A program made the position numbers and the translations under genes. The notes under the pieces were generated by a model, which was not told the DNA's origin, did not search any database, and saw only the letters and a list, made by a program, of their open reading frames with translations. A stretch of DNA of 64,000 nucleotides from Bryobacterales bacterium KBS 96 (lineage in GTDB: Bacteria; Acidobacteriota; Terriglobia; Bryobacterales; Bryobacteraceae). The stretch is taken from the NCBI GenBank assembly GCA_000381625.1, contig KB906767.1, positions 6,285,672 through 6,349,671 on the forward strand. The letters run 5' to 3'. Of this stretch, positions 23,193-46,508 are shown piece after piece; the first letter of the stretch is position 1, and each line of letters opens with the position of its first letter.

Positions 23193-23293
23193 GCCCCCAT
23201 TCTACTCCGCGGGCAGATTAAACATGAAGCAATGTTAATCTGAAATTGTCCGTCGATTTTCGTCCGCGAACGCACTGGTCTTGCAAATATGAA

Positions 23294-24667: not shown

Positions 24668-24743
24668 GCGGCGCTCGCCTCGTATGTTTTGTTGCTGCGC
24701 AGAGGTGCAGGTTTGAGCGTCTTCACTTCTTTAGGAAAAAATT

Positions 24744-26132
24744 ATGCGGATTACCTGGTTGATTCTGGCTGCGGCGCTTGGCGGATCGTGTTTGTGGGCG
24801 GCGCCCACCGATGCTCCGCTGCCCAACGTGCTGCTAATCTCTATCGATACTCTTCGGGCGGACCATCTTTCATGCTACGGATACGCGCGAAGAACCAGTC
24901 CCTATATCGACGGGCTGGCTCAGGAAGGAACACGTTTCTCTCGTGCCTATACTGTCATTCCCCTAACGGGACCGGCACATCTTTCGCTTTTCACGAGCCG
25001 TTATCCCCAGGAGAACGGCGTCAGGCGCAACGGAGTTGCTCTTCCCGACAACCGCGCCATTGTTACGCTGCCACAGATTTTGCGCGGCCACGGTTATCAG
25101 ACAGGCGCATTCGTCAGTTCGTGGCCCCTGCTTGGCCGGCTGACGCATCTCAATCGTTATTTCGACTCTTACGATGAACATCTAACTCGCACATATCAAC
25201 TGTTCAATTCGAGCCGCTACGCGGAAGACGTCACGCCTCGTGCGCTGAAATGGCTTCACAAGCACGCAAACAAGAAAAAGCCTTTCTTCCTTTGGGTTCA
25301 CTATTTCGATCCGCATGAACCGTATCTGTTCCGCGCGGGCTTTGATCCGGCGGATGTAGACAAGGCGCATCCTTATCAACCGCCGAAAGACGACGGCATG
25401 CGCGAGCGGATGCGCAATTACGATTCGGAGATTTATTACACGGACCACAGCATCGGCAAATTGCTTGCGGCGCTGGATGCCATGCACATCAAGGATTCGA
25501 CCATGGTCGTGCTGGTTGCCGACCATGGCGAGAGCCTCGGACAACACGGCTATGTCGGCCACGGACGCCATCTATTCGAGGGCATCATTCACATTCCCTT
25601 CATCGTCCGCTATCCCGGTCATGTCAAGGCCGGTCAGGTGATCGACACTCCCGTGTCGATTATCGACGTCACGCCGACCATCGTCGATCTGACGGTGAAG
25701 AACGTAGAGGCTGCCAAGGAGAAAGTGCCTGTCGTGTTCTCCGGCCGCAGCTTGGCAAGTTCACTCAAGGACGGCGGGCAGCCGACGGATCGGCGGATTT
25801 ACTACGTCACATTTCCGGGTAAGAAGGGATATGCTCCGCAATGGCTCTCCTGGATGTGGGTGCAAAATGAAGAGCTGCCTTCGCATTTCGGACGGATCGA
25901 CGACTTTTCGAAAGCGATCTGGGACCCGGGGAACAAGAAGCTGTCGCTGTATGACCTCCGCTCCGACCCTCATGAGCTTCACGCTCGTATCCTCACGGCG
26001 AGCAATTCCACTTATGAGGCTGACACCTCGGCGCTAAAGAAGTGGTTTTCACGAACGGAAACTCGTGCAACCGAGCAGAAACTCAGCCCGCATGATGAAG
26101 AAGTGCTGAAGAGCCTTGGATACGTGCAGTGA
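24744..26132 (+). CDS. Sulfatase-fold hydrolase without the formylglycine motif
   Basis: A signal peptide (MRITWLILAAALGGSCLWAAP) precedes VLLISIDTLRADHLSCYGY, with its metal-binding aspartates. The usual C/S-x-P-S-R is replaced by LTGPAHLSLFTSRYP, giving Thr in the nucleophile position and no following S-R pair. VVLVADHGESLGQHGYVGHGRHL carries the other ligands. Such proteins are common in bacteria and could be phosphodiesterases or phosphatases. The protein ends in DEEVLKSLGYVQ, a tail related to that of the small protein at 17878-18069. A good bidirectional terminator follows. Confidence 0.82.
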   Translation: MRITWLILAAALGGSCLWAAPTDAPLPNVLLISIDTLRADHLSCYGYARRTSPYIDGLAQEGTRFSRAYTVIPLTGPAHLSLFTSRYPQENGVRRNGVALPDNRAIVTLPQILRGHGYQTGAFVSSWPLLGRLTHLNRYFDSYDEHLTRTYQLFNSSRYAEDVTPRALKWLHKHANKKKPFFLWVHYFDPHEPYLFRAGFDPADVDKAHPYQPPKDDGMRERMRNYDSEIYYTDHSIGKLLAALDAMHIKDSTMVVLVADHGESLGQHGYVGHGRHLFEGIIHIPFIVRYPGHVKAGQVIDTPVSIIDVTPTIVDLTVKNVEAAKEKVPVVFSGRSLASSLKDGGQPTDRRIYYVTFPGKKGYAPQWLSWMWVQNEELPSHFGRIDDFSKAIWDPGNKKLSLYDLRSDPHELHARILTASNSTYEADTSALKKWFSRTETRATEQKLSPHDEEVLKSLGYVQ

Positions 26133-33167: not shown

Positions 33168-33418
33168 AGACCTACGATTTCAAGAATGGCAAGCGAGGCG
33201 CCGTCCTTCCGGTTGCGGCCGGGAAAGAGCGCATAACGATTCGCCTGGACGCCGACATTTTGAACTACTTCCGCGAACAAGTCGATGCCGCGGGCGGCGG
33301 CAGCTACCAGGCGCTGATGAACCAGGCGTTGCGAGAGCATATTGAGGGAGCGAAGGCGCCGAAGATCGAAGAACTGATACGGCGCGTCATCCGCGAAGAG
33401 ATGCGCCGGGCGTCGTAA
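33164..33418 (+). CDS. brnA: BrnA family antitoxin
   Basis: The 84-residue protein has the BrnA core KERITIRLDADILNYFREQ followed by GGSYQALMNQALREHI, a ribbon-helix-helix DNA-binding domain. The C-terminal tail EELIRRVIREEMRRAS is basic. ATG overlaps the toxin stop as ATGA, so the pair is translationally coupled. The protein would bind BrnT and repress the operon through the palindrome at 32872. Parts of the tail are repeated as remnants at 31995 and 38608. Confidence 0.9.
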   Translation: MKTYDFKNGKRGAVLPVAAGKERITIRLDADILNYFREQVDAAGGGSYQALMNQALREHIEGAKAPKIEELIRRVIREEMRRAS

Positions 33419-33558
33419 GGCGCCTCGGGCAGGCCGCCGTCTGGCGCCCATCAGTTGCGGCCCAACTCTAGTTGCTCGGAGCAGAACTGCCGCCGACACC
33501 GGTGTCGCTCTGCACGGCTCTACCGTCCGGGCTTCACCCGCACGATTCAGGCGTTTTG

Positions 33559-33639
33559 GAACGCGATGAATTCGAAGCTGCCGATGCCTGGGAGCGCTCA
33601 ATGGGCAAGCTGAACAGCGGCGACGGAAAACGGCAGTGA
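33559..33639 (+). pseudogene. 3' remnant of a tyrosine integrase gene
   Basis: The last 26 codons read ERDEFEAADAWERSMGKLN and SGDGKRQ, then a stop. They differ from the end of the intact integrase (45183-46382) by one residue (M for I). Upstream the similarity ends abruptly with a frame-breaking extra T. The distance from this stop to the next att core (50 bases) equals that for the intact integrase (51 bases). This is the relic of an older island that used the same tRNA. Confidence 0.85.
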
Positions 33640-33645
33640 AACGGA

Positions 33646-33663
33646 ATGCTAGGATATGCTAGG
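33646..33663. repeat. Paired direct repeat, likely integrase arm site (element 1)
   Basis: ATGCTAGG occurs at 33646-33653 and again at 33656-33663, exactly one helical turn apart. It ends 26 bases before the att core at 33690, the same spacing as the TGTCATG pair before the tRNA copy at 46434. Confidence 0.6.
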
Positions 33664-33689
33664 TTTTTCTCGGTAAGTTGTTGAAAAAT

Positions 33690-33716
33690 TGGTAGCGCTA
33701 ACGGGAATCGAACCCG
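33690..33716 (-). repeat. att core A (3' end of tRNA-Glu)
   Basis: TGGTAGCGCTAACGGGAATC continuing GAACCCG is identical to the 3' end of tRNA-Glu at 46434-46460 and then diverges. It is 27 bases long and is not followed by the rest of a tRNA. It marks the junction between the relic island on its left and the 2.6-kb island on its right. Confidence 0.88.
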
Positions 33717-36204: not shown

Positions 36205-36281
36205 CAACACTCGGATATTTGGATCTGGAGCCATCAACTAACGGGAATCAAGCTGGATGTACTTGTATGTTATTGAAACGA

Positions 36282-36305
36282 TGGTAGCGCTAACGGGAAT
36301 CGAAC
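36282..36305 (-). repeat. att core B (3' end of tRNA-Glu)
   Basis: Another copy of the tRNA-Glu 3' end, 24 bases (TGGTAGCGCTAACGGGAATC then GAAC), after which the sequence differs (GCG instead of CCG). It is the far end of element 3 and the near end of element 2. Confidence 0.88.
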
Positions 36306-36408
36306 GCGTTCAGACCTACTCCGAACCGTCTCACCTGGTGTTAAGTTATTGATTTTGGGTTCACCGGCTGCCTCACTTGTTGCCTGATTTCAGCCTGTTT
36401 TTGCGGCG

Positions 36409-36426
36409 TGTCATGTCCGTGTCAGG
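36409..36426. repeat. Paired direct repeat, left arm site of element 3
   Basis: TGTCATG (36409-36415) and TGTCAGG (36420-36426) lie 11 bases apart, starting 104 bases after att core B. They match the TGTCATG pair at 46391-46407 at the other end of the element. Confidence 0.6.
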
Positions 36427-36656
36427 ACGGAGAGTAAGTGGAACGTCCAAAACTTCCCATTTTTCCTCCCTCATTTGAGGGACAAAACCGGGAGCCCAAA
36501 AACCTCAAAAACCCGCGATCGCGAAAATTTCCAGTTTTGCCGATTTTTGCGTTTGTGTGCGCAACGGTCACGGAAACAAAAACTGTAGAGATCGAGATCG
36601 CCCCGGGCAATCCAGGGGCGCACTTCCGGCGCCCCCTTTTCTGGCTTGCGGAACGG

Positions 36657-36875
36657 CTAAGACGGGAACGACTTTACGGTCTCTCGGAGCGCGGCGCTCT
36701 GGCGCTCTTCGAATTCTGGCGTGCCGGCTGTATAGGCACGGTCAATGCTGGATTGTGGATTGCTTCGAGGCTCGGAGCGAAACAGGGATATCAGACTTTC
36801 GCCGGCCGCCTTCAATCGCTCGAGGCCGCGCCGCTCTCGCGCCGCGGATGAAAAATCGATCGTTTCTTTGCTCAA
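36657..36875 (-). CDS. Small hypothetical protein of the satellite element
   Basis: A TTG start at 36873-36875 is supported by AAGGAG seven to eight bases upstream. The 72-residue product is charged and helical (MSKETIDFSSAARERRGLERLKAAG). It is downstream of the RHH gene on the same strand. No homologous family was recognised. Confidence 0.5.
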   Translation of the reverse strand: MSKETIDFSSAARERRGLERLKAAGESLISLFRSEPRSNPQSSIDRAYTAGTPEFEERQSAALRETVKSFPS

Positions 36876-37109
36876 GACATTTCTCCTTCGGTTTGATTGA
36901 GGCCACCAAGGAGAGGAGATTTTCGAGGGGCTTATCCTCCGGGCTCTCCGGCTTCCCGTTCACAGCGCAATGCCTGCCGTGCCGCGCCTTGCCATGTCTG
37001 GTTTAGTGGCCGAACTGATTGTACGGCCAAAGCGATTTGCCTGCAAGAGGCGAAAGATCCAGTACGCCGCGCAGACCCGGCGCAAAACGGCCCGAACGGG
37101 CCCCATCGC

Positions 37110-37283
37110 TCAATCCGCCTTGGCTTGCTCTGCCGGCCTCGGTTTTTGATTTAACGCCCAGTTCAGGAGCCATTTGATTGCGGCCGCCCGGCTTTCAAAT
37201 CTGTGCCTGAACCGGAAATCGTCCAGCCGCTTCATAAGCTCGGAGTCCACCACGAAATGCAGGAAAGGTTTGTCGTTCGCCAT
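37110..37283 (-). CDS. Small ribbon-helix-helix DNA-binding protein
   Basis: This 57-residue protein reads PFLHFVVDSELMKRLDDFR, then FRHRFESRAAAIKWLLNWAL. That is one beta-strand, helix A, a turn, and helix B as in Arc/CopG/MetJ-type regulators. It ends in a Lys/Ala-rich tail. The gene is divergent from 37398, and the space between holds a perfect 17-base inverted repeat (37309-37325), the likely operator. It would regulate itself and the plus-strand genes at 37398-38406. Confidence 0.7.
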   Translation of the reverse strand: MANDKPFLHFVVDSELMKRLDDFRFRHRFESRAAAIKWLLNWALNQKPRPAEQAKAD

Positions 37284-37308
37284 TGACCGTTAGAATAACC
37301 GGTATAAC

Positions 37309-37325
37309 AAGTATTGACAATACTT
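37309..37325. promoter_or_regulatory. 17-base perfect inverted repeat in a divergent promoter
   Basis: AAGTATTGACAATACTT is two perfect 8-base arms around one base. It is flanked by CGGTATAACAAG on the left and CGGTATAACTTG on the right. It lies 26 bases upstream of the RHH gene start and 73 bases upstream of the gene at 37398. Both arms overlap TTGACA- and TATAAC-like hexamers, so binding would block a promoter. Confidence 0.65.
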
Positions 37326-37397
37326 CGATACCTACGGTATAACTTGTTGTGCCGATACGACACCGCATTCGGCTCACACTGAAAGGAAAAACACGCA

Positions 37398-37823
37398 ATG
37401 CTTCACATGGACGAATTGACAACGCCGGCGCTCGAGCGGGCTGAGCCTGATGTATTTCTGACGCTTTGGGGATGCGAATCAGAACCAAGCCCTGAGCGCA
37501 CGCCGCTTCAGCAGTTCCGCGATAAATACTCCTTCCTCGATCAAACTGCCCTTGTTCGGTCGCTGGACCTGAATAACGCCAGTGAGAACGAGCTTGGCCT
37601 GCTCGCGCAATTTCGGCTTGTCTGCAATAGCGACGATCTCATTTCCAATTTCATTACGGCGCTGGTCACGGCGCATTTCGAGCAGATCAACTCGGATGAG
37701 GCACTGACTCCGGGCAGCATCCAGGGACGGCTTGACGGTTTGAAGGCGATTTGGGCGGATGAGGTTCACGTCGCCAGGTGGCTGCTGGCGCGGCATCCGG
37801 AGCTGGTGAAGGAGGTGGCGTAA
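37398..37823 (+). CDS. Hypothetical protein of the satellite element
   Basis: 141 residues, acidic and mostly helical (QQFRDKYSFLDQTALVRSLDLNNASENELGLLAQF in parts, then SIQGRLDGLKAIWADEVHVARWLLARHPELVKEVA). No motif or domain is recognised. GAAAGGA is upstream at a slightly long distance. It is the first of a plus-strand cluster with the genes at 37826 and 38140, opposite to the RHH regulator. Confidence 0.62.
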   Translation: MLHMDELTTPALERAEPDVFLTLWGCESEPSPERTPLQQFRDKYSFLDQTALVRSLDLNNASENELGLLAQFRLVCNSDDLISNFITALVTAHFEQINSDEALTPGSIQGRLDGLKAIWADEVHVARWLLARHPELVKEVA

Positions 37824-37825
37824 GC

Positions 37826-38143
37826 ATGGTCGCTCGAAAAACCCGCCGCCGCAAAACGATAGTTCTAACTTTTGCGGCAAACAGCAGTACTGAATCGGAA
37901 ACCGGTAGGATTCGGCGCGCGGCGCCTGTAGTCCAGATGCCGTTGCGCAATCCGGAGGACACGATCACGCAGGGAGACCTTCAAGGCCTGCGAGTTAGCT
38001 GGGAGATCGTGAATGAGCTACTCCGCGCGGCGTCTAACGTGGAGGATTCGCTTCAAGAACGCATCCGTGCCGGAGCTGCCATCGAGCCCGGGAGAGAGAA
38101 ATTCGAGCACAGAGGCGGGGTTCTGAAAGGAATGGAGAGATGA
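37826..38143 (+). CDS. Hypothetical protein with RIRxGAxIEPG motif (1 of 2)
   Basis: 105 residues from the ATG at 37826, with a basic N-terminus (MVARKTRRRKTIVL). The second half is helical and ends LQERIRAGAAIEPGREKFEH, a motif shared with the next gene's product (IKERIRQGATIEPGMEKWNH). It starts two bases after the upstream stop and overlaps the next gene by four bases (ATGA). No known domain. Confidence 0.62.
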   Translation: MVARKTRRRKTIVLTFAANSSTESETGRIRRAAPVVQMPLRNPEDTITQGDLQGLRVSWEIVNELLRAASNVEDSLQERIRAGAAIEPGREKFEHRGGVLKGMER

Positions 38144-38406
38144 GCGCGAAAGCTCCGGTCCCTGCCGCCGCCCCGAAAGAAAAGAGCAAGCCCAAAATAG
38201 TGTGCATTCGGCAGGGGGCCGTAATATCGCAACGCGAACTGACGGACTTGCGCGAGGAGTTGGAACGCTGGTTCAGAGAGTTCGAAACAATCACGGAATA
38301 CCGGCTCGAGATCAAGGAACGGATCCGCCAGGGGGCGACAATCGAACCCGGGATGGAGAAGTGGAATCACGAGCGCGGGAATGTAGAGGGCGCTCGAATG
38401 GGTTGA
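38140..38406 (+). CDS. Hypothetical protein with RIRxGAxIEPG motif (2 of 2)
   Basis: 88 residues, with a basic Ala/Pro/Lys-rich N-terminus and a heptad-like helical centre (LREELERWFREFETITEYRLEI). Then comes IKERIRQGATIEPGMEKWNH, paralogous to the end of the preceding protein. The ATG overlaps the previous stop as ATGA. The pair probably arose by duplication and may form a complex. The function is unknown. Confidence 0.62.
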   Translation: MSAKAPVPAAAPKEKSKPKIVCIRQGAVISQRELTDLREELERWFREFETITEYRLEIKERIRQGATIEPGMEKWNHERGNVEGARMG

Positions 38407-38476
38407 GGCTCGGTGAAAACTGGGGATGGAGGGAATTCGTGTATCCTAGTCACTGTCACGTTCACGAGGCACGGTA

Positions 38477-38611
38477 ATGAGCACAAAACAGCCGGCACTG
38501 GCATTAATCAACGTCATCGCCTGGGCCTGGCTTGCCGTCAGTATTGCCCACTGGCTGGAACGCGGTTTTGCGCTATTTGGCGCGAGCGTGCGGAACGCGA
38601 TGGGCTTCTGA
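38477..38611 (+). CDS. 44-residue single-helix membrane protein
   Basis: The frame encodes MSTKQPALALINVIAWAWLA, then VSIAHWLERGFALFGASVRN, then AMGF. It has one membrane helix with a short polar start and a GAGG-type sequence upstream. A holin-like or regulatory small protein is conceivable, but nothing proves translation. Its stop lies at the point where the brnA remnant begins. Confidence 0.38.
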   Translation: MSTKQPALALINVIAWAWLAVSIAHWLERGFALFGASVRNAMGF

Positions 38612-38658
38612 AAGCCATACGCCGCGTCATCCGCGAAGAGATGCGCCGCGCGTCGTAA
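38608..38658 (+). pseudogene. Remnant of a brnA 3' end in the satellite element
   Basis: The last 16 codons, LKAIRRVIREEMRRAS and stop, match the tail of the intact BrnA (ELIRRVIREEMRRAS) almost exactly at nucleotide and residue level. The rest of the gene is gone. It sits between convergent genes of the element, so brnTA probably was once cargo here too. Confidence 0.7.
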
Positions 38659-38675
38659 AGGGCCCGGGCGGGCGT

Positions 38676-39575
38676 TTAGGTGATGATCCATATGAACGGC
38701 CGGGCCCTCCGGCGGGCCGCTCCAAACGTCTGAGTCGCTCCATTGGTCCACGTCGCCGCAGTGAAACTCTGAATGTCGGTCCAGGTCGCGCCGCCGTCTA
38801 CGCTCTTTTGCAAGGTGAAATCGTGCGGCGTCTGGTTCGGGTTGCTGGTTCGCGCCGTGATCGAGAACGATCCGACCGTCAAGCCGGAAGAGTTGAACCT
38901 GAAAGCCAGCCACTGAGGAGAGGCGACCGTAGGGGTGGCGTTTGACGCCCAATAGGTGGCCGCGTCTCCGTCGAAAGCTTCGGCGGATCCGTCAGTTCCT
39001 TCTCCCGAGTAGACAGATAAGGCTGACGATGCACCGTCGGTAAATGATATTGGAGTTCCGCCAGAATCGTATAGCGTCCATTGCACTATTGAGCACACGC
39101 CTGTTCCGTCAGTGGAGGTGATTAGAAGCCGGAACGCGTCGCCCAAGCCAAAGCTTCCGACCGAGAAGGTCTGCACTTGACCCGCCGAAGTCCACGGAGC
39201 GCTGTAATTGCCGATGGTGCTCCAGGTTGAGCCGTCATTACTCCCCTGAAGGCTCCAGCTATCGGGACACTGAAAAAGAATGTCGTTGCGAATCGCGATC
39301 GAATACGTCGCTGGCGTTACGGCCGAAGGGAATTGATACTGTATCCAGTGAGGAGAGGTCGGAGTAGCCTGCGAGCTCGTTGCCCAAAACGTGCTGGCGT
39401 TCCCATCAAACGCATTGGATGCGGCTCCGAATGTGACATCGTCTGCCGATGCGGTGCCGCCCGTCGTCGCAATTTGAGAGCCTCCCGAGTCGTAAAACTT
39501 GATCTCCGCTATCGATAGAACGTTATATGTGCTGTTGATGGCGGAGAGCCGCCAATAGCTGTACGTGAAGCTCAT
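38676..39575 (-). CDS. Protein with two F5/8-type C (discoidin)-like domains
   Basis: The ATG at 39573-39575 overlaps the cold-shock gene stop as ATGA. Residues of about 5-135 (SYWRLSAINSTYNVLSIAEI, then FDGNASTFWATS, then WIQYQFPSA) and 150-290 (AEAFDGDAATYWAS, then PQWLAFRFNSSG) are two copies of a jelly-roll discoidin-like fold. The A-F-D-G-x-x-x-T-x-W segment is the hallmark. Such domains bind glycans or lipids. There is no signal peptide. Its place at the end of the capsid operon suggests a virion decoration or receptor-binding protein. Confidence 0.72.
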   Translation of the reverse strand: MSFTYSYWRLSAINSTYNVLSIAEIKFYDSGGSQIATTGGTASADDVTFGAASNAFDGNASTFWATSSQATPTSPHWIQYQFPSAVTPATYSIAIRNDILFQCPDSWSLQGSNDGSTWSTIGNYSAPWTSAGQVQTFSVGSFGLGDAFRLLITSTDGTGVCSIVQWTLYDSGGTPISFTDGASSALSVYSGEGTDGSAEAFDGDAATYWASNATPTVASPQWLAFRFNSSGLTVGSFSITARTSNPNQTPHDFTLQKSVDGGATWTDIQSFTAATWTNGATQTFGAARRRARPFIWIIT

Positions 39576-39829
39576 TGATGGTTCTCTTTCCGCAGCGCGC
39601 GGCCGTTCACCTTCACCAGCTCGACATTCGCGCACTGCGGGCCCTTGTCGCCGCGGACCAGGTCAAATGAGACTTCGGCGCCCATTGGAAATGCCGGCAT
39701 TTCGCCGCCTTTCGAGCGAACGGCCGAGATGTGAAAGAACACGTGCGCGGCATCCGGCCCGTCGCCCGCAAGAGGCTTGACAAAACCAAAGCCACGTTTA
39801 GCGTTGAAGTGAGTTACGATTCCTGTCAT
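39572..39829 (-). CDS. Cold-shock domain protein
   Basis: The protein starts MTGIVTHFNAKRGFGFVKPL, which contains the RNP1-like K-R-G-F-G-F. DAAHVFFHISAV follows as RNP2 (V-F-F-H), and the end is D-K-G-P-Q-C-A-N-V. It is a single OB-fold that binds single-stranded RNA or DNA. A CSD gene inside a capsid operon is unusual; it overlaps the discoidin gene by four bases, so the two are expressed together. Confidence 0.85.
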   Translation of the reverse strand: MTGIVTHFNAKRGFGFVKPLAGDGPDAAHVFFHISAVRSKGGEMPAFPMGAEVSFDLVRGDKGPQCANVELVKVNGRALRKENHQ

Positions 39830-39923
39830 TGTTCACCTTCGAGTTATCGGGGGCGGTAATGCTTGGCCGCCCCTGGGTTGTTTTTCTGGATCCGTGCGAC
39901 ATGCGCGGCGGATCAATTTTGCC

Positions 39924-40565
39924 TTAGCCCGCGAGACGCTGCAACTCGCCGGCAAAGGCCTTCAGGTCGCGCAGGATCGCCTCATCGACTCCGTGCTGTG
40001 GTGAATGAGCCCGCAAGCGTTTCAACTCGCGATCGATCTGTGTGAGGCTCTGGAGCGCGGTAGCGTCCAATTCCTCGGCGGGCATAGACTTCAGAAGCCG
40101 CGAGACGTCCGAGAGGCTCTTAACGCTGGTAACGGTAGCCTGCTCGTTCATCGGGAAAGTCACGATGCTGACCTCCCATAACCGCACTTCGTTGAGCATG
40201 CGGCCGCCGTCCGGCGTGGCCGCGGCCTTGATCGTCTCGAAGCCGATCGAGAGGCCCTTCACGATGCCGGCCTTCATAAACTGCTGCGCCTTCTCCGCTG
40301 TCGGGTCCACTAATAGCAACTGACCGTTGAGCAGTAAGCCTTTCGGGTCGTCTGTGATTCGCCCGATTCCGATCGGCGTCCGGGCGTCATGCTGCCAGAG
40401 AATCGGGTAGCCTTTGCCCTGCATTTGAATGCTCTGGGCGAAGCATCCGGGCATGCAGATATCGCCGCCATGGTCGACGTTGCCGTAGGTCGAAGCATAG
40501 CCGGAGAAAGAGCCCGATTCGTCGGGCTCCCCTCGGAGCTTGAACTGAAAACTTTTGTGCTCCAT
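39924..40565 (-). CDS. HK97 family phage prohead protease
   Basis: GSFSGYASTYGNVDHGGDICMPGCF (in pieces) is the typical opening, with D/H around residue 30. ILWQHDARTPIGI supplies the catalytic His at about residue 60. GLSIGFETIKA at about residue 107 supplies the Ser, followed by EVRLWEVSIVTFPMNEQATV, the conserved W-E-V-S-x-V-x-x-P. The Ser/His protease cleaves the capsid scaffold during maturation. It lies 14 bases downstream of the capsid gene, the reverse of the usual protease-then-capsid order. Confidence 0.9.
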   Translation of the reverse strand: MEHKSFQFKLRGEPDESGSFSGYASTYGNVDHGGDICMPGCFAQSIQMQGKGYPILWQHDARTPIGIGRITDDPKGLLLNGQLLLVDPTAEKAQQFMKAGIVKGLSIGFETIKAAATPDGGRMLNEVRLWEVSIVTFPMNEQATVTSVKSLSDVSRLLKSMPAEELDATALQSLTQIDRELKRLRAHSPQHGVDEAILRDLKAFAGELQRLAG

Positions 40566-40579
40566 CAGTGGCGCGCTCC

Positions 40580-41713
40580 CTATGCGGGCGAAGTGGTGAA
40601 GCTGCCGTGAATGAAACTGGCCGGGCGTTTGACCACGAGCGCGAGGCGCTTCTCACCGCGAACGGCCACGAGATTTTTCACGAAGTAGTCGGAGTGGCTC
40701 GTGCTGATTTCTACCTGCGTTTCCATGCGATCGCGGATTTCCGCCGCGGCCTGGTCGCCAGAGCCAACGAGGAACGAGCCTTGCGCGATGCTGGTCGTTT
40801 CAATGATCGTTTTATTGAACAAACTCGGCATGACGTTGGTTTGCGGATCGCCCAAAATGTAGCGGCCGTACTGGTCTTTGGTCAAACGCATGTCGGTCCA
40901 GTCCTTCGGGTGAACTACGACGAAGGTAGGCACGATTTCTTTCGCCGTCGCGAGCTGGCCGATCGCGCGCCCGACGATGTCGATTTTGTTCCAGCCAGCG
41001 GAAGCGCTCAGAAGGCTCGTATCGAAAGCACTGGCTTGCGTGATCAGACCATTCAAATTCTCGCCAGTGCTGTCGCCAGAGAGAAGCTGAAGCTCTTCTT
41101 CGAGGTTCACGTAATATGCGAGCGAGCCCTGGATGAACGAGGCCAATTCGCTGAAATCGTCCAGGATTTGCCGCGTTGCCGGGATCCAGGTAGCGATAGT
41201 TCGGACCTTCTCGGATGCCGACGTGAAAGTAACTGCGTTCTCCGCTTTGTCGCTCGCCTCGACTTGTGGCGATGCGATGCTCATGGGCGACGAGACTTTC
41301 ACGAAGTCGATCACCTGGAGCATGGTGGGCCTGGCCGTAAGCGCATCACGAACGGTCAATTGCTGCCGCGCCTCCGGCGTAATGCCGGGAATGCGATCGA
41401 TCTGGAGGACGCCAGTGGTTTGGCTGCCGGCCGCGGCCGATGTGATCATCGCCTTGCGATCGAAGATCATGCTCTTCGTGCCGCTCAGGGTCAGAATGGC
41501 AGAGCCCCGCTTATCGTGCAGCAAACGCGCAACGGCGTCGTCTTTCTTCAACTCTTCGGCCAAATCGAAGCCGGCGCCCCCAAGATGACGGTCAGAGTTC
41601 GCCTTGTCGATAGCATCGAGCTGAGCTTGCATTTTCTTTTGCTGATCGGCAAAGCCCTGCACTGAGGTTTGAATGCTGTCCAAGACGGACTTTAATTCGA
41701 TGTTTTCAGGCAC
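40580..41713 (-). CDS. HK97-fold phage major capsid protein
   Basis: The GTG at 41711-41713 has AGGAG seven bases upstream. It gives a product of 377 residues that begins VPENIELKSVLDSIQTSVQ, a coiled-coil delta/scaffold region cut off in maturation. The capsid body follows: TRQILDDFSELASFIQGSLAYYVNLEEELQLL in pieces, GDSTGENLNGLI, VVHPKDWTDMRL, and the C-terminal FLVGSGDQAAAEIRDRMETQVEIS. These are the P-domain/E-loop signatures of HK97 capsids. It forms the icosahedral shell. It is one of the few structural genes of the element. Confidence 0.9.
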   Translation of the reverse strand: MPENIELKSVLDSIQTSVQGFADQQKKMQAQLDAIDKANSDRHLGGAGFDLAEELKKDDAVARLLHDKRGSAILTLSGTKSMIFDRKAMITSAAAGSQTTGVLQIDRIPGITPEARQQLTVRDALTARPTMLQVIDFVKVSSPMSIASPQVEASDKAENAVTFTSASEKVRTIATWIPATRQILDDFSELASFIQGSLAYYVNLEEELQLLSGDSTGENLNGLITQASAFDTSLLSASAGWNKIDIVGRAIGQLATAKEIVPTFVVVHPKDWTDMRLTKDQYGRYILGDPQTNVMPSLFNKTIIETTSIAQGSFLVGSGDQAAAEIRDRMETQVEISTSHSDYFVKNLVAVRGEKRLALVVKRPASFIHGSFTTSPA

Positions 41714-41877
41714 TTTGAAACTCCTACGAACGAAATTGTGATGTGAACCGCGAGTGCAGGACGCTGCTCGCCAGATTTGCGGACTGCTCGCCGTGCCGGT
41801 TACTATTCGAGTGCCTTTGGCTGCTCGAACCCGACGCGCGAGTGTCAAAAACAGTATGCCTCGAAAATGTTCCGGTT

Positions 41878-42126
41878 TCAAGCGAGGCCCCCCGGATTGA
41901 TTGCGGCGAGCAACTGTGGCCCGATTTTGTCGACATGCTCGATCGCCGATTGCAATTCGTCTTCGCTCGCATCGGGATCCTGAGCCTTCAAAAGCGCCGC
42001 GCGGCACGCCCGAAGCGCGCGCAACGTCCCAGCGTCTCGCGTGAAGCCGTGCACCTTCGCGGCCTGAAGCGCCGGCGTCAAGCGCTCGAGCCTTTCATTG
42101 AGCTGCGAGTTCAGCTCGAATGTCAT
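41878..42126 (-). CDS. Small helical protein of the satellite element
   Basis: 82 residues, all helical by composition (QLNERLERLTPALQAAKVHG, then RALRACRAALLKAQDPDASEDELQSAIEHVD in part). It overlaps the upstream gene stop by four bases. It could be a scaffold-like or assembly helper given its place just upstream of the capsid gene, but no motif proves this. Confidence 0.62.
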   Translation of the reverse strand: MTFELNSQLNERLERLTPALQAAKVHGFTRDAGTLRALRACRAALLKAQDPDASEDELQSAIEHVDKIGPQLLAAINPGGLA

Positions 42127-42389
42127 GACTTCGGCTCCGTCTCGTCGTTGAAGAGCTTCTCCAACTCCAGAATTTCGGCCCGGGCCCGCTGTATCGCCGC
42201 GGTGTCGATCGCCAGGCGTGAGGAATCGGGCGCCTCCTCGTCCGCAACGGCCTTCGTGATCGAGGCGATCATCTCCAGCGTGAGTGACTGGATCCGATGC
42301 AGCGACTCGATTTGAGCCTGCTGTTTGCGGGCCACGTCGAGCATGCCCTTGAGGGCGGTGACAATATCGCTACTCAGTTCGTTTTCCAT
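42123..42389 (-). CDS. Small helical protein of the satellite element
   Basis: 88 residues, predicted coiled coil (IVTALKGMLDVARKQQAQIE, then EILELEKLFNDETEPKS). It starts on the last base of the small-terminase stop and overlaps the next gene by four bases, so it belongs to one translational chain. No known domain was recognised. Confidence 0.6.
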   Translation of the reverse strand: MENELSSDIVTALKGMLDVARKQQAQIESLHRIQSLTLEMIASITKAVADEEAPDSSRLAIDTAAIQRARAEILELEKLFNDETEPKS

Positions 42390-42826
42390 CAGTAAACACC
42401 TCTCTCGAAGAAGCTGGAATCATCATCCGCGGGCTTCTTCCTCGCGCTCGCGGGCGTCAGTCCAAACTCGTTCAGGCACGCGGCCAGGCGCCGGCTTGCA
42501 TCGCTCAGGAATCGAACTTTCGGATTTGGCCTCTGCATCGTCGCGCCGGCGGATGTTTTGGCTTCGTAACAGTAGCCTTCGCCTTCGATGTCGCGCGAGA
42601 GCTGGCGCCAGGCGGCGTACGTCGCGCAGAGAAGCGCCAGGGCGGGCCCATCAGCTGTTCGAAGGATATCGGGCTCGATTAGCGGAACGATTTCGCGCCA
42701 GGCGGTCTGCGCTGCCTCGGAAAGCCACTCCGGCGGCGCGGGAATGGGTTCAACTTTTTGTTTTTTCGGCATACTCAAATTGCGTTCTAAATCGCGGAAC
42801 TTCGCGGCATAGTTGCGTGCGGTCAC
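42389..42826 (-). CDS. Phage small terminase subunit, P27 family
   Basis: PIPAPPEWLSEAAQTAWREIVPLIEPDILRTADGPALALLCATYAAWR (in pieces) is the P27 core. It has W-L-S-x-x-A-x-x-x-W, a D at the start of the second helix, and L-C-x-x-Y-x-x-W/R, followed by a helical stretch with NPKVRFLSDASRRLAACLNEFGLTPASARK, the usual P27 end. The protein recognises the packaging site on DNA. The GTG start at 42824-42826 forms GTGA with the previous stop, favouring it over the ATG at 42772. No large terminase gene is nearby. Confidence 0.85.
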   Translation of the reverse strand: MTARNYAAKFRDLERNLSMPKKQKVEPIPAPPEWLSEAAQTAWREIVPLIEPDILRTADGPALALLCATYAAWRQLSRDIEGEGYCYEAKTSAGATMQRPNPKVRFLSDASRRLAACLNEFGLTPASARKKPADDDSSFFERGVY

Positions 42827-43029
42827 GGAGCCGAAGTCTGTAGAGATTTACTCGCCCCTGGGTGCCTTGTAACGTTCACGCGAGGCGAGCTATCGACCGG
42901 ATCGCGCCAACGAATCTCCAATGTTTGCCCGCATCTGGGGCATATCGGCCGCGAATTGCAATCGATGTGAACGCTACAGTGACATCGGAAACAGACCACG
43001 TTGTACTCTTCAATCTGACGTCCGCTCAT
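42823..43029 (-). CDS. Zinc-ribbon protein
   Basis: 68 residues: the C-F-R-C and C-P-R-C-G pairs, about 16 residues apart (VVCFRCHCSVHIDCNSRPIC, then PRCGQTL), form a zinc ribbon. A polar tail follows. The ATG overlaps the upstream stop as ATGA and the stop overlaps the small-terminase GTG as GTGA. It may bind DNA or a partner of the packaging machinery. Confidence 0.72.
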   Translation of the reverse strand: MSGRQIEEYNVVCFRCHCSVHIDCNSRPICPRCGQTLEIRWRDPVDSSPRVNVTRHPGASKSLQTSAP

Positions 43030-43289
43030 CTGATTTCTCCTTCGAAAACCCGCGCAGAAAACGACTCAAAAACGCCCGAATCGTGCGGGTGCATGCGGGT
43101 TTTTTGCGACAAACGAGCGCGCACAGCCGTCGCCCATCGGACCAAGCCGGAATGCTCGCCGCCGAACTTCTCAGGGTTCGCCAGAACAACGTGGGCCGCG
43201 CGGCGGTTGCTCTCATCGAAGCCGGCAAGCCGCGCGATCGGGCTCGAGCGGGGATGCAGACGCAGTCCGAGCTGTTGGCTATTGTTCAT
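43026..43289 (-). CDS. Small hypothetical protein of the satellite element
   Basis: 87 residues starting at the ATG at 43287-43289, which overlaps the previous stop as TGATG. It has a basic, mixed composition (LRLHPRSSPIARLAGFDESN, then FGGEHSGLVRWATAVRARLS). No motif is recognised. Both ends overlap neighbours, so translation is very likely. Confidence 0.6.
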   Translation of the reverse strand: MNNSQQLGLRLHPRSSPIARLAGFDESNRRAAHVVLANPEKFGGEHSGLVRWATAVRARLSQKTRMHPHDSGVFESFSARVFEGEIR

Positions 43290-44062
43290 CACGCCGCGGT
43301 TCCCTTCGCCGTTCTCCCGCACTCGCACGGCTCGTACAATTCGCTCTCCGGCAGCTCGGTCCAGCGGGGTTGCTCAGTTATCCCAGGTTTGTAAGTGAGC
43401 CCGGTGTCGCCGCATCGTTCGCACGCTGGTCGCGATCCGTCGCGGGCTTTTGACGATTTCGGCGCGCCGTTTCGCAGAAATGCGGGCACGGTTGTGAGCC
43501 ACAAGCCAGCAGACTGTTGTGACGCCTTATGAGTTTGGCGCACCGCGGCCGCAATCTCGGCGTCCGTAGCTTCCGGACAAACCCGTCGAGCGGCGGCCGC
43601 GATGCGTTGCGCGATCGCCGCGTCCGCATCTGGGAAAAACGACGTAATGGCCGCGAACGTCGTCGTCGTCTGTTGTTCGTCTGTTGTGCTCTCGTCGTCG
43701 TCTGCTCTCCCTGGGAGTTTGTGTGGAGAGTGTCCGGACTTTCTGGCGTATTCGTCCTTATATTTGAGGACGTTAGGAACACAGATTCTAATCCTTCCAT
43801 CCTGACTCTCGGACACTTGCATGAGATGTGCGCGAAAATCTTGAAGAAGTTTGCGGAAAATCCGGCGGTCCAGGTGGGTGATCTCGCACCATTTACGCTC
43901 CGAGTGCGTTGCCTCGGGCAATGGTTTTTGGCTATCCATGGCCGCAGCGATATCCTCGACAACCAGCCAGTACATGCCATAAGCGGCCGCGCCGTGGCGC
44001 TCGAGTAATGCGTCCATTGCGTCATCCGCATGCGCCATCGTCAAATGTTTAAGCCACCGCAC
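43289..44062 (-). CDS. Replication-initiator-like protein with C-terminal zinc finger
   Basis: The N-terminus WLKHLTMAHADDAMDALLER, then HGAAAYGMYWLVVEDIAAAM, matches the fold of DUF4373/Lin1244-type proteins (R/W-x-x-x-x-x-x-x-x-G-x-x-x-Y-G-x-Y-W). These are phage replication-initiator or DnaD-like proteins. A Thr/Asp-rich linker follows at about residues 120-145. The C-terminus has CERCGDTGL and CECG, a zinc-binding cluster. The exact role (origin binding or helicase loading) is inferred. The GTG start at 44060-44062 is chosen for the frame and fits the family. Confidence 0.65.
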   Translation of the reverse strand: MRWLKHLTMAHADDAMDALLERHGAAAYGMYWLVVEDIAAAMDSQKPLPEATHSERKWCEITHLDRRIFRKLLQDFRAHLMQVSESQDGRIRICVPNVLKYKDEYARKSGHSPHKLPGRADDDESTTDEQQTTTTFAAITSFFPDADAAIAQRIAAAARRVCPEATDAEIAAAVRQTHKASQQSAGLWLTTVPAFLRNGAPKSSKARDGSRPACERCGDTGLTYKPGITEQPRWTELPESELYEPCECGRTAKGTAA

Positions 44063-44070
44063 CGTAATGC

Positions 44071-44331
44071 CTACGCCGCCGTCGTGCTTTCCGTTCGAGC
44101 CGGGCGCGTTCCTTCGGCAAGGATTCGCTCGATTTCGGAAACTGGGATCAACACGCGCCCTTTAGGGCCGCCGACTTTGACATGCGCGATTACTCCTCGA
44201 TACACCCAGCTTCGAAGTTGCCCTCGTGAAAAGGGAGAAATTTTCGCGCCCTCGGCCGGGCTCACGTATTGCTTCAGGTTGCTTACGGCATTCGATTCTG
44301 CTTTTACTTCATTCGAATTTTGCATTTGCAT
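44071..44331 (-). CDS. Small HTH (excisionase/MerR-like) DNA-binding protein
   Basis: 86 residues with a polar N-terminus and a winged-helix core. YVSPAEGAKISPFSRGQLRS forms the first part, WVYRGVIAHVKVGG the second, and a Gly-Arg wing with VLIPVSEIERILAEG ends it. This is the arrangement of Xis/HTH_17 proteins. It may direct excision or act as a regulator. It is the second gene of the minus-strand operon. Confidence 0.7.
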   Translation of the reverse strand: MQMQNSNEVKAESNAVSNLKQYVSPAEGAKISPFSRGQLRSWVYRGVIAHVKVGGPKGRVLIPVSEIERILAEGTRPARTESTTAA

Positions 44332-44386
44332 GAAAGCTCTTATAGCAGCGCCAAGTGTCTCGTGGGAAGACTTGGCGCAAGGAAAA

Positions 44387-44578
44387 TCACTTGCCGCACG
44401 ATTCGAGCCAGCGTTCCAGTGCGGCGCGGGGCACGTAAAACCTGTTCCCGACGCGGATGCTGGGCATAGAGCCGTCCCTGAGTAGCTTGTAGGTCGCGCT
44501 GATACCGAAGCCCGTATACGCGGCGGTCTGATGTGGAGTGAGCGTCGTTTTGTTGGCGCTCTTCACGTTGCGTTTCAT
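44387..44578 (-). CDS. Xis/AlpA-like helix-turn-helix protein
   Basis: 63 residues: LTPHQTAAYTGFGISATYKL, then LRDGSMPSIRVGNRFYVPRAALERWLES in pieces. That is the HTH_17 fold of excisionases and of the satellite activator AlpA (helix-turn-helix with an R-x-G-x-R-x-x-v-x-x-x-x-l-x-x-w wing). It is the first gene of the rightmost minus-strand operon and is divergent from the XRE repressor. This matches the switch regions of P4/PICI-type satellites. Confidence 0.82.
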   Translation of the reverse strand: MKRNVKSANKTTLTPHQTAAYTGFGISATYKLLRDGSMPSIRVGNRFYVPRAALERWLESCGK

Positions 44579-44661
44579 CTTGTGATAGCCTCTGTTCTTG
44601 AAAGGAAGTGTTTGACACCGCGTTAATACCGATTGGTATTAACTGATCAATTGGTATCAAA
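44579..44661. promoter_or_regulatory. Divergent switch region between xis-like gene and XRE repressor
   Basis: The 83-base gap holds TTAATACCGATTGGTATTAA (44623-44642), two perfect 8-base arms around GATT, and a second half-site AATTGGTATCAA at 44649-44660, 18 bases on. This looks like a repressor operator. The second site ends one base before the ATG of the XRE protein, so binding could also repress that gene. Confidence 0.7.
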
Positions 44662-45186
44662 ATGCCACGGCCAACGTCAAGGAAAAAATCTAAACTCTCG
44701 ATGGCGGTCGCCGAGTTGCGAACACGCCTTGGAATGAGCCAGCAAGAATTCTCAAATCGAATGGGCGTCGCACTGAACACGATCGCGAGGTACGAGAGCT
44801 CGCGAGAGCCCGACGGAGCCGTACTTCTTCGCTTTGCGGAACTAGCCACGAAGGAAGGGTACGAAGACCTGGCGGAGAAGTTTAACGACGCATTCAGAGA
44901 GTGGATCTTCGGCGCCACCGAAGGTAGCGACATTGCTTTGACCGCGTTCCGGACCCGCTACGCGGGACGTCCGGATTACGGACTTCTCATGCTAAAGCTG
45001 TATAGCCTAAGAGAATTTGACTTCGCCGCGAAATTTCAAAGAGTCGTTCTTTATTTGCGGCGGTCGAAGAACGAGAAGCAACGGGAAGAAATTTTGCGTG
45101 CGCTGGATTCTGCGGTAAAGGCCATCGATGAATACCCTCTGACAGTTGAGTTCATTCAAAGGGCGAAGGGGAAAGGCGGGAAATGA
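44662..45186 (+). CDS. XRE-type repressor with helical C-domain
   Basis: Residues 14-66 (MAVAELRTRLGMSQQEFSNRMGVALNTIARYESS in pieces) are a Cro/CI-type helix-turn-helix. The remaining 110 residues are helical, ending YPLTVEFIQRAKGKGGK. There is no LexA-like peptidase motif, so it would not be inactivated by RecA-mediated self-cleavage. A helper signal or another protein would have to derepress the element, a hallmark of many satellites. The stop overlaps the integrase ATG by four bases. Confidence 0.82.
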   Translation: MPRPTSRKKSKLSMAVAELRTRLGMSQQEFSNRMGVALNTIARYESSREPDGAVLLRFAELATKEGYEDLAEKFNDAFREWIFGATEGSDIALTAFRTRYAGRPDYGLLMLKLYSLREFDFAAKFQRVVLYLRRSKNEKQREEILRALDSAVKAIDEYPLTVEFIQRAKGKGGK

Positions 45187-46382
45187 CCGGTTCAATCACG
45201 AAGCACAAACAGGCGAACGGGCGCATTTCCTGGGGCTATCACTTCCGGCCCGGCAGGGATGCGGCCGGCAAGTGGATCCGGATTACAAAGCAGGGCTTTT
45301 CAACGAAACGCGAGGCGGAGGACGCTCTCCGCGACGCGATCACCTCCAGTCAGGCCGAACCGGCCGCCGCGCGCGATCCCCGGAGCTTCTCTGAATTCTT
45401 TGCCGCTTGGATTCGCGAATATGCGGAGCGTCAGTGTGAGCCCAAGACCGTCGATCGCTACGTCGAGCTCGGCGCATATGCCAGCCGGCATTTCGGAAGC
45501 ATGCCGATCGTCGACCTCACACCGTTGACGCTGGAACGCGCATTTAACGAACTGCTCGATCACGGCGGAAAGAGGACCAAGGAACACCCGAACGGCCGCC
45601 CGTTGTCTCCGAAGACGGTTCGGGAAATAGCCTCGGTCGTAAACGGCACGCTGAAGACGGCGAAGCGCTGGCAAGCGATCAAAGAAAACCCGATGGGCTC
45701 TGTCGAGCTGCCCAAGCTCGCGCACAAGCAAGCGCAGGCGCTCGAACGCACGCAACTCGAGAACGTCGCCACTTGGGTGCAAGGTCACGAGTGGCTGGAG
45801 CTGCTGATCGAACTGGACGCGGCGACCGGCTGCCGCCGCGGTGAGCTTCTCGCGCTTCAATGGCCCGACATCGATTGCGAGAACCGGATCCTGAACGTTT
45901 CGAAGTCGCTTCAGCAAAGCAAACGGGCCGGGCTTCGGATCAAATTGCCAAAGGGCAAGAAGACGCGCCGCTTTCCGTTGCCTGCGTCCGCAATTGAGGC
46001 CGTGCGGGAACACAGAAGGCGTCAGGAGCGATTTCGAGACGCATTCGGGCCCGACTACAGGACGGATCTCGATCTCATCTTCTGCACGCCGGAAGGCGAT
46101 TATCTGAAGCCCGATAGCGTTTCGTCGAAGGTGAGCTTGCTCATGCGGAGCCTGGGCCTGCCGAAGGGCGTTTCGCTCCACACCTTGCGGCATACGCACG
46201 CGAGCCATTTGCTCTCGATGGGCGTCTCACTGCCGGCCGTCTCGAAGCGCCTCGGGCATGCGAACACGAACGTGACCGCTCAGGTCTACGCGCACGCCCT
46301 GGAACGTGACGAATTCGAAGCGGCCGACGCCTGGGAACGTTCAATAGGAAAGCTGAACAGCGGCGATGGAAAACGGCAGTGA
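45183..46382 (+). CDS. int: Site-specific tyrosine integrase
   Basis: 399 residues. The N-terminal arm-binding region (residues 1-60) has the AP2-like pattern SWGYHFRPGRDAAGKWIRIT. A SAM-like core-binding domain covers residues 65-150 (SFSEFFAAWIREYAERQCEP, then YVELGAYASRHFG). The catalytic domain contains ATGCRRGELLALQWPDID with the first Arg, LHTLRHTHASHLL with H-x-x-R, RLGHANTNVTAQVYAHAL with the nucleophile Tyr. Its 3' end abuts the tRNA-Glu target, and a 26-codon relic of a related integrase is at 33559. The ATG overlaps the repressor stop as ATGA. Confidence 0.92.
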   Translation: MTGSITKHKQANGRISWGYHFRPGRDAAGKWIRITKQGFSTKREAEDALRDAITSSQAEPAAARDPRSFSEFFAAWIREYAERQCEPKTVDRYVELGAYASRHFGSMPIVDLTPLTLERAFNELLDHGGKRTKEHPNGRPLSPKTVREIASVVNGTLKTAKRWQAIKENPMGSVELPKLAHKQAQALERTQLENVATWVQGHEWLELLIELDAATGCRRGELLALQWPDIDCENRILNVSKSLQQSKRAGLRIKLPKGKKTRRFPLPASAIEAVREHRRRQERFRDAFGPDYRTDLDLIFCTPEGDYLKPDSVSSKVSLLMRSLGLPKGVSLHTLRHTHASHLLSMGVSLPAVSKRLGHANTNVTAQVYAHALERDEFEAADAWERSIGKLNSGDGKRQ

Positions 46383-46390
46383 AACCGGCG

Positions 46391-46407
46391 TGTCATGTTG
46401 TGTCATG
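46391..46407. repeat. Paired direct repeat, right arm site of element 3
   Basis: TGTCATG occurs at 46391-46397 and at 46401-46407, ten bases apart. It is 26 bases before the att core in tRNA-Glu, the same distance as in the relic island at 33646. The element's left end carries a matching pair at 36409. Confidence 0.6.
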
Positions 46408-46433
46408 CTTTTCCGGCTAAGTTACTGAAAAGA

Positions 46434-46508
46434 TGGTAGCGCTAACGGGAATCGAACCCGTATTTAAGCCTTGAGAGGGCTCCGTCCTAACCGTTAGACG
46501 ATAGCGCC
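46434..46508 (-). tRNA. tRNA-Glu(CTC)
   Basis: The reverse strand reads GGCGCTATCGTCTAACGGTT... and folds into a full cloverleaf with a CTC anticodon in the loop C-T-C-T-C-A-A, a T-loop GGTTCGATTCC and an encoded CCA. The acceptor stem ends in a G-U pair. The sequence is close to other bacterial tRNA-Glu. The 3' half is the att site of the neighbouring islands (core 46434-46460) and it has been kept intact through several integrations. Confidence 0.95.

Follow-up and report, generated by a model that had tools for sequence, protein, structure and literature searches.

An apparently intact, recurring 10-kb satellite-like element with its own capsid and protease genes in an acidobacterium

The 64,000-nt stretch of the Bryobacterales bacterium KBS 96 genome analysed here (the window) carries an element at positions 36266-46461 that is integrated in a tRNA-Glu gene, bounded by a 44-nt direct repeat, and encodes an integrase, a repressor, a small terminase (TerS), an HK97-fold capsid protein and a prohead protease. 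On the evidence of gene content, gene order and relatives, we think it quite probable that this is an intact integrative phage satellite that would build its own head shell and obtain portal, packaging motor and tails from a helper. It is apparently an intact example of a recurring satellite design, new as a variant of a known general kind. No published account of satellites in acidobacteria was found in the open-access literature. Known satellites for the most part either alter the shell of their helper or bring a full set of head and packaging genes, and the group described here would be intermediate, a little-known kind of phage parasite that owns shell and protease without portal and motor.

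Absent genes, gene order and recurrence

Hidden Markov model (HMM) searches at E 1e-8, using profiles built up from head genes of a prophage resident in the same genome (locus L014), returned no match to portal or large terminase (TerL) in the element, and the same profiles did find its capsid and protease. Connectors (seeds from the resident prophage and a related one), HNH (two seeds) and the major tail protein also gave no match in HMM searches at E 0.01. Seeds were verified by Pfam (TerS, PF05119; TerL, PF20441/PF03354; portal, PF04860; head completion, PF05521; HNH, PF01844) or by PHROGs (head-tail adaptor, tail terminator and major tail protein). The absence of portal, large terminase and connector genes noted in the initial annotation is borne out by these searches, and its further claim that tail genes are missing holds for the major tail protein but not for a discoidin gene, which matches PHROG tail families. 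No lysis gene emerged when 20 translated frames were scanned against Pfam and PHROGs, the only profile searches that covered lysis functions.

Capsid searches recovered nine IMG/VR loci, a second capsid in the same genome, and matches in Edaphobacter aggregans and Terriglobus albidus, with capsid matches in 5 of 396 genomes of the phylum. The host falls into the class of Terriglobus and is thus an acidobacterium, which the initial annotation had called probable. Protease profiles matched in 9 of 250 genomes of the family to which genome G143 belongs; seven of these have capsid-then-protease order (one, G320, decayed and read through locus L019) and two are of the phage kind. Order was scored on the 175 loci kept after exclusion of short or duplicate ones (L010-L013, L015, L020-L024, L028 and L030-L039), and not all of the 175 are independent contigs (e.g. 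L008 and L130). Protease-then-capsid order was found in 149 loci, of which 129 carry a portal and 93 of these also TerL; 18 of the 20 without a portal have fewer than 700 bases upstream of the protease, because of contig ends. Another ten loci have no scorable capsid/protease pair, two of them with a portal. Capsid-then-protease order, that of the window, was found in 16 loci, and within the sequence stretch examined neither portal nor TerL occurs in any of the 16. The refuting case named in the initial annotation, close relatives with such genes that would make this copy a deleted prophage, was not encountered. Three of the 16 stretches are shorter than 6 kb (L048, L053 and L134) and the rest span 9.9-21.1 kb.

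Elements with the same gaps and gene order, for which the initial annotation had proposed a search, were found at other tRNA sites. Ends were mapped for seven elements of 8.5-10.2 kb, six of them in six different tRNA genes. Besides that of the window, these are:

L018: tRNA-Ser (GCT), 9,837 bp, perfect 25-nt repeat
L025: tRNA-Arg (CCT), 9,742 bp, mapped ends
L026: tRNA-Asn (GTT), 9,526 bp, mapped ends
L199: tRNA-Ala (CGC), 10,012 bp, mapped ends
L200: tRNA-Arg (CCG), 10,119 bp, mapped ends
L194: no tRNA found, 8,504 bp, mapped ends

Attachment (att) ends were searched for and not found in L027 and L195, and element ends are not settled for L040, L048, L053, L134, L193 and L198. Three genomes (G143, G492 and G532) carry two elements each. 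The gene at the replication (Rep) position varies, being a Prim-Pol in L025, a DnaB-like gene in L199 and an HTH_36 protein in L018. The L026 satellite, in G143, also encodes a MmeI-like type IIG restriction-modification enzyme (L026:5719-8625), apparently as cargo, and one contig (L040:264-5823) holds two integrase-like and two similar Rep-like genes, as if elements stood in tandem.

These data bear on the possibility that the element is a deleted, dying prophage that retained capsid and protease by chance. Relatives of its genes do occur in full prophages, one of them in the same genome, and internally deleted relics are known at the same site (window 33.4-33.7 kb, and genome G001) and in Terriglobus (L019, a decayed member of the 16). 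However, all 129 portal-bearing loci in which the pair could be scored have the reverse gene order, and therefore simple deletion cannot produce the element; the same gaps and a similar size recur at other tRNA sites; and its frames are open, with overlapping starts and a low ratio of nonsynonymous to synonymous substitution rates (dN/dS). The overlapping starts that the initial annotation described in the late operon are real by coordinates. For capsid (five pairs) and protease (three of its four pairs) dN/dS is 0.11-0.22, and the window-L018 protease pair has 0.39; these values indicate purifying selection, but dS is at least 0.84 in every pair, so that dN/dS is rough. On gene order, recurrence, size and dN/dS we mostly reject decay from a prophage, which we regard as very improbable. 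The satellite interpretation already offered in the initial annotation is well supported by the same gaps and gene order at other tRNA sites and by purifying selection in the tested pairs.

Gene content and integration site

The integrase and an XRE repressor lie on the plus strand at the right end of the element, and the remaining large gene run is on the minus strand, comprising, from the right, two HTH_17 genes, a Rep-like gene, two small genes, the P27 TerS gene, two further small genes, and the capsid, protease, cold-shock and discoidin genes. The left third (36.3-38.7 kb) contains small plus-strand genes absent from the initial annotation. The features are listed from right to left, with identities to the integration modules of L194 and L195 where these apply:

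46434-46508, minus: tRNA-Glu (CTC), the integration target (tRNA search)
46418-46461, unstranded: attR, at the tRNA-Glu 3' end (repeat and tRNA search)
45183-46382, plus: tyrosine integrase (PF00589, 8e-24; PHROG 1, 6e-71; 41% to L195)
44662-45186, plus: XRE repressor, divergent from the late genes (HTH_3, 1e-8; 31% to L195)
44387-44578, minus: AlpA/Xis-like HTH_17 protein (PF12728, 2e-9; 54% to the L194 gene, 35% to the L195 gene)
44071-44331, minus: HTH_17 DNA-binding protein (PF12728, 1e-6)
43289-44062, minus: replication-initiator-like protein (PHROG 345, E 0.004, weak; residues 135-257 58% identical to a resident-prophage protein)
43026-43328, minus: 100-aa protein (no family in Pfam and PHROG scans)
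42823-43029, minus: 68-aa zinc-finger-like protein (PF17122, 4e-4, under the family's cut-off)
42389-42826, minus: P27-family TerS (PF05119, 2e-19; PHROG 83, 2e-28; GTG start at 42826, alternative ATG at 42772)
42123-42389, minus: orf88, a helical protein encoded ahead of the capsid and a candidate factor for assembly or size (shared profile; two-helix model)
41878-42126, minus: 82-aa protein (no family above chance)
40580-41713, minus: HK97-fold major capsid protein with an N-terminal delta-like region (PF05065, 4e-35; model compared with HK97 prohead I)
39924-40565, minus: HK97-type prohead protease, S78 (PF04586, 2e-26; PHROG 80, 6e-49)
39572-39829, minus: cold-shock-domain protein (PF00313, 6e-14)
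38676-39575, minus: discoidin (F5/8C) protein (PF00754, 3e-21; PHROG tail and virion-structure families via F5/8C domains)
38140-38406, plus: p88 (33% to a 99-aa resident-prophage protein, E 0.003)
37826-38143, plus: p121, 105 aa from its ATG, a p88 paralog (37%; no family found)
37398-37823, plus: 141-aa protein (no family above chance)
37110-37283, minus: 57-aa regulator-like protein, RHH-like by reading (PHROG 4738, transcriptional repressor, 2e-8; 41% to an L194 gene)
36266-36309, unstranded: attL, the 44-nt direct repeat as a tRNA-Glu 3'-end fragment (27 of 28 core bases match the tRNA copy)
33377-33716, plus: older related-element relic, an integrase C-terminal fragment with a third att copy (sequence comparison)

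Pfam and PHROG matches confirm the integrase, divergent XRE repressor, AlpA/Xis-like HTH protein, P27 TerS, HK97 capsid and prohead protease claimed initially. For the claimed replication-type protein the family match is weak and support comes from its relative in the prophage, which PHROGs names as a replication initiator (1e-12) through a match covering the other half of the phage protein. The capsid gene probably starts at GTG 41713 behind AGGAG, as read from the sequence, and the AlphaFold model of its product (pLDDT 75) has HK97 prohead I as its top PDB match (E 6e-29). A role of the discoidin protein in virion decoration or binding is possible. The tandem paralogs p121 and p88 (37826-38406) contain a GA(T/A)IEPG motif that is also present in the 99-aa protein of the resident prophage (L014:2778-3077). 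PADLOC, run on five window proteins, reported no defence gene beyond a generic cold-shock-domain match.

Four families of small proteins (57-105 aa) are encoded ahead of the capsid in eleven or fewer elements, with the following members:

Short-protein family A: window, L026, L027, L194
Short-protein family B: L018, L025, L026, L027, L040
Short-protein family C: L198, L199, L200
Short-protein family D: L018, L026, L027, L040

Their profiles gave 0 matches in the 149 phage-order loci at E up to 1; as these profiles were built from the proteins that they find, only the absent phage matches and the extra members are informative. One such case is the profile from the orf88, L026 and L194 copies, which also recovers the L027 protein. 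The window orf88 is modelled as two helices (pLDDT 80), and a structure search with it returned nothing at E 0.001 or below. As a guess, the short proteins might act in assembly or head size.

The two repeat copies (36266-36309 and 46418-46461) are 91% identical and spaced by 10,152 bp, in agreement with the att-flanked 10.2-kb element of the initial annotation. That annotation spoke of two tRNA-Glu att cores; there are indeed two att copies but only one tRNA gene, since the genuine tRNA-Glu (CTC) reaches with its 3' end into the right copy and the left one is a 3' fragment. In the relic to the left of the element, 33445-33636 is 52% identical to integrase residues 336-399 and an att copy lies at 33690 (one mismatch in 28). 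The relic stretch 33377-33434 also matches 38617-38673 at 90%. At the same tRNA of G001, a genome of the same genus with syntenic host flanks, about 2.7 kb matches only both ends of the element, and we read this stretch as the relic of an internally deleted element.

Capsid exchange and a candidate helper

Element capsids are scattered among phage capsids and element proteases are more clustered, a tree pattern that points to swapping of capsid cassettes. In the capsid tree (154 rows), the 15 element rows require nine label changes, at least seven of them forced by starred branches; in the protease tree (138 rows) the element rows require five, at least three of them forced. For the 43 rows common to both, capsid data reject a single clade of nine elements (log-likelihood 148 lower, p-AU 4e-9), while in the protease tree the nine stand on one side of a branch (support only 56) and 29 phages form a starred group. 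This nine-row group, which omits L019, L053, L134, L195, L198, L199 and L200, was picked after the trees were seen.

A direct view of such a swap comes from L026 and L027, two elements of one genome. Their DNA is 92-93% identical from 45 bases before the capsid gene to about 75 bases into it, falls to 42-63% per window across the rest of that gene, and is 67-93% identical over most of the protease gene, with lower values at its 3' end; the capsid body has therefore been replaced between conserved flanks. In L195, capsid and protease both adjoin one phage, L120, in the trees. Over time capsid genes are exchanged with phages, probably because this keeps the shells compatible with helper portals and connectors.

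The resident prophage extends from tRNA-Phe, and the copies of its 22-nt att pair lie near C1:128,534 and C1:171,521, 42,987 bp apart. In this prophage, part of which lies in L014, Pfam identifies genes for TerS, TerL, portal, head completion and a gp10-like protein; PHROGs adds a head-tail adaptor, a tail terminator and, weakly, a tape-measure protein. Element and prophage are 68% identical in capsid, 48% in protease, 28% in TerS and 58% in part of Rep. Of the candidate helpers, this HK97-like prophage of 43 kb is the best. A second prophage-like region of the same genome (L215, G000:C1:5516500-5536499) has a PF04860 portal, a major head protein (PHROG 10, 9e-59), a TerS 31% identical to that of the element and, by reading, TerL, protease and tail genes; the 20 kb around its portal have no 14-nt stretch in common with the element.

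Element and resident prophage also share a putative cos-like site, present twice in the element:

36557-36592, minus: site A, cos-like, ATCTCTACAG-N8-TCCGTGACCGTTGCGCAC (its final 18 nt equal the stretch just upstream of the prophage terS)
42820-42847, minus: site B, a further cos-like copy that lies at the start of terS, ATCTCTACAG-N8-TCCGTGACCG (pattern search)

The 18-mer TCCGTGACCGTTGCGCAC has exactly two copies in 6.69 Mb, one located 36-53 bp upstream of terS in the prophage, the other at window 36557-36574; there are no near-copies at one or two mismatches and four at three, and a read-backwards control gave three places. The 28-nt pattern ATCTCTNNAG-N8-TCCGTGACCG has exactly three copies (at site A, at site B and upstream of terS in the prophage) and one further place at two mismatches, with one for the control. 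The prophage copy stands in a usual cos position. By its position, the shared site is probably a packaging site. It is rather doubtful that phage and satellite instead share a copied regulatory site, such as a late promoter or a site for an activator, with packaging dependent on another signal. In favour of regulation, the function is deduced from position only and copy B overlaps the terS start; however, some 250 bp separate copy A from attL and, by reading, no likely gene starts downstream of it, and the prophage copy is 36-53 bp ahead of terS.

Several observations weigh against an intact satellite served by such a helper, in addition to the high dS values, the three short stretches and the late choice of the nine rows given above. 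Among 61 loci, the motif lies near TerS only in the prophage itself (shuffled motifs, mean 0.36, largest 3). In four other genomes with both element and portal, the 20 kb around the portal contain no site in common with the element, the longest element-prophage match being 15 nt compared with up to 17 nt in mismatched genomes, and the same regions give 0 matches to the capsid and protease profiles. A PF04860 portal was not found in four of the eight element-bearing genomes searched. The tile upstream of the prophage terS ranks only 10th of 309 by local alignment to the element, the tiles above it including the homologous head and Rep genes. TerS was found in just 3 of the 16 capsid-then-protease loci. 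Two of the 16, both IMG/VR contigs, carry tail-type genes: L053 (1742-4027) adds a tape-measure gene (PHROG 8462, 8e-40), and L134 (3818-5592) adds gp10-like and tape-measure-position homologs, the latter without a PHROG match. Capsid-then-protease order alone is therefore no proof of a satellite, and these two mixed loci could represent either phage rearrangement or a larger satellite.

In IMG/VR, 15 contigs contain the 16-mer, and TerS is nearby only in L224, which is the same prophage (100% over 10,310 bp). With no further case among the 61 loci, in IMG/VR or in the four other genomes, general sharing of a cos-like site across elements is not supported, and the link through this site therefore rests on one element-prophage pair.

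Proposed mechanism, head size and known satellites

If the element is a satellite, activity of the helper phage would lift the repressor, and the element would excise and replicate. Its capsid protein would then assemble around the helper portal into a small shell, which its own protease would mature; the helper TerL would load the ~10-kb genome, guided by the satellite TerS and/or the cos-like site common with the helper, and helper tails would complete the particle. A published size model, in the accessible part of its source, gives tailed-phage heads of T=3 a genome of 11.78 kb (8.1-17.1) and those of T=4 one of 17.98 kb (13.2-24.5) (PMC7762592). Element sizes of 8.5-10.2 kb would fit T=3 by this comparison, but a head of 43 kb could equally be filled by four copies.

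An alternative reading along these lines is packing of four tandem copies (~40.6 kb) in helper-size heads rather than one copy in a small head. Four copies of 10.15 kb amount to 94% of the prophage length of 43.0 kb, and the accessible parts of two papers describe satellites that package several copies per particle (PMC11389934) and entry, at low efficiency, of three P4 genomes into P2-sized heads (PMC6893505). But such packing gives no reason for an own capsid and protease, and 10 kb is within the T=3 range (8.1-17.1 kb) and below that of T=4 in the model as excerpted (PMC7762592); we consider it unlikely.

Capsid interference would be another use for the capsid gene. The element capsid would co-assemble with that of the helper, in the manner of Ccm, shrink or poison heads, and ride in mixed heads. 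Ccm of SaPIbov5 is described, in the part of the source available, as a capsid homolog that enters small capsids alongside the helper capsid (PMC6893505), and the lack of a portal, a short helical protein ahead of the capsid that could be a size factor, and 68% identity to the resident-prophage capsid, which could permit mixing, would all suit it. Against this, Ccm is 23% identical to the capsid of its helper according to the same partial source (PMC6893505), whereas here there is a full conserved capsid with its own protease, and replacement by fresh phage-like capsids suits a complete shell better. We give capsid interference only a small chance.

More broadly, and tentatively, a possibility we hold short of likely is that these elements form a separate acidobacterial satellite family whose core is capsid and protease, with TerS optional. 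Such a family would retain the gene order, the protease and the opening codons of the capsid gene, where the scaffold-like delta region begins, but exchange the capsid body to suit the portals of different helpers; its short proteins, found only ahead of these capsids, would keep heads small, perhaps at T=3, and the element would be tied to its helper by a copied cos site. Which parts of satellite shell and helper portal must match, and what sets head size, become questions open to testing in nature, with capsid swaps between elements of one genome as ready-made natural experiments and the resident prophage as a concrete helper.

The initial annotation regarded the gene set as that of capsid-forming phage-inducible chromosomal islands (cf-PICIs), only smaller. 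As a classification this fails, and cf-PICI membership is rejected: their definition, in the portion of the source available, includes portal, connectors, TerL and HNH (PMC10690885), and all four are among the genes not found here. The two are alike in being integrated satellites with an HK97-type capsid, protease, TerS and repressor of their own that would require helper tails. They differ in the element's size of ~10 kb, its capsid-before-protease order and the at least seven forced label changes among its 15 capsid rows, the element being set apart from cf-PICIs by description rather than direct sequence comparison.

By gene set, the element is closer to PICIs with capsid homologs and to the Vibrio plasmid PISP than to cf-PICIs. 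With the former (SaPIbov5 with ccm; PmCI172 and EcCICFT073), compared by the published description of gene content in the accessible part of PMC6893505, it shares an integrase, att sites, a repressor, a replication module and a capsid-like protein; it adds its own prohead protease, and its capsid is 68% identical to that of the resident phage versus 23% for Ccm in that description. PISP (TG93), a Vibrio satellite-plasmid of 11.1 kb, has the nearest published gene set found, namely a capsid, a head maturation protease, a small terminase and a regulator, with no tail, as described in the available part of its source (PMC13230959). There it is an episomal plasmid with parA/repA and no integrase detected, whereas the element is integrated in tRNA-Glu with an integrase; and the PISP capsid belongs to PF03864 in the same partial source (PMC13230959), whereas the capsid frame of the element matches only PF05065 at E up to 1. 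The resident HK97-like prophage has a homologous capsid, protease, TerS and part of Rep and the cos-like site in common with the element, but possesses a head, packaging and tail set in the order TerS-TerL-portal-protease-capsid. Charybdis elements appear unrelated, from the part of their description available (PMC12324425).

Elsewhere in the window, about 10 kb to the left of the element, positions 18219-26132 hold a run of genes whose translations read as sulfatase or alkaline-phosphatase-superfamily proteins.

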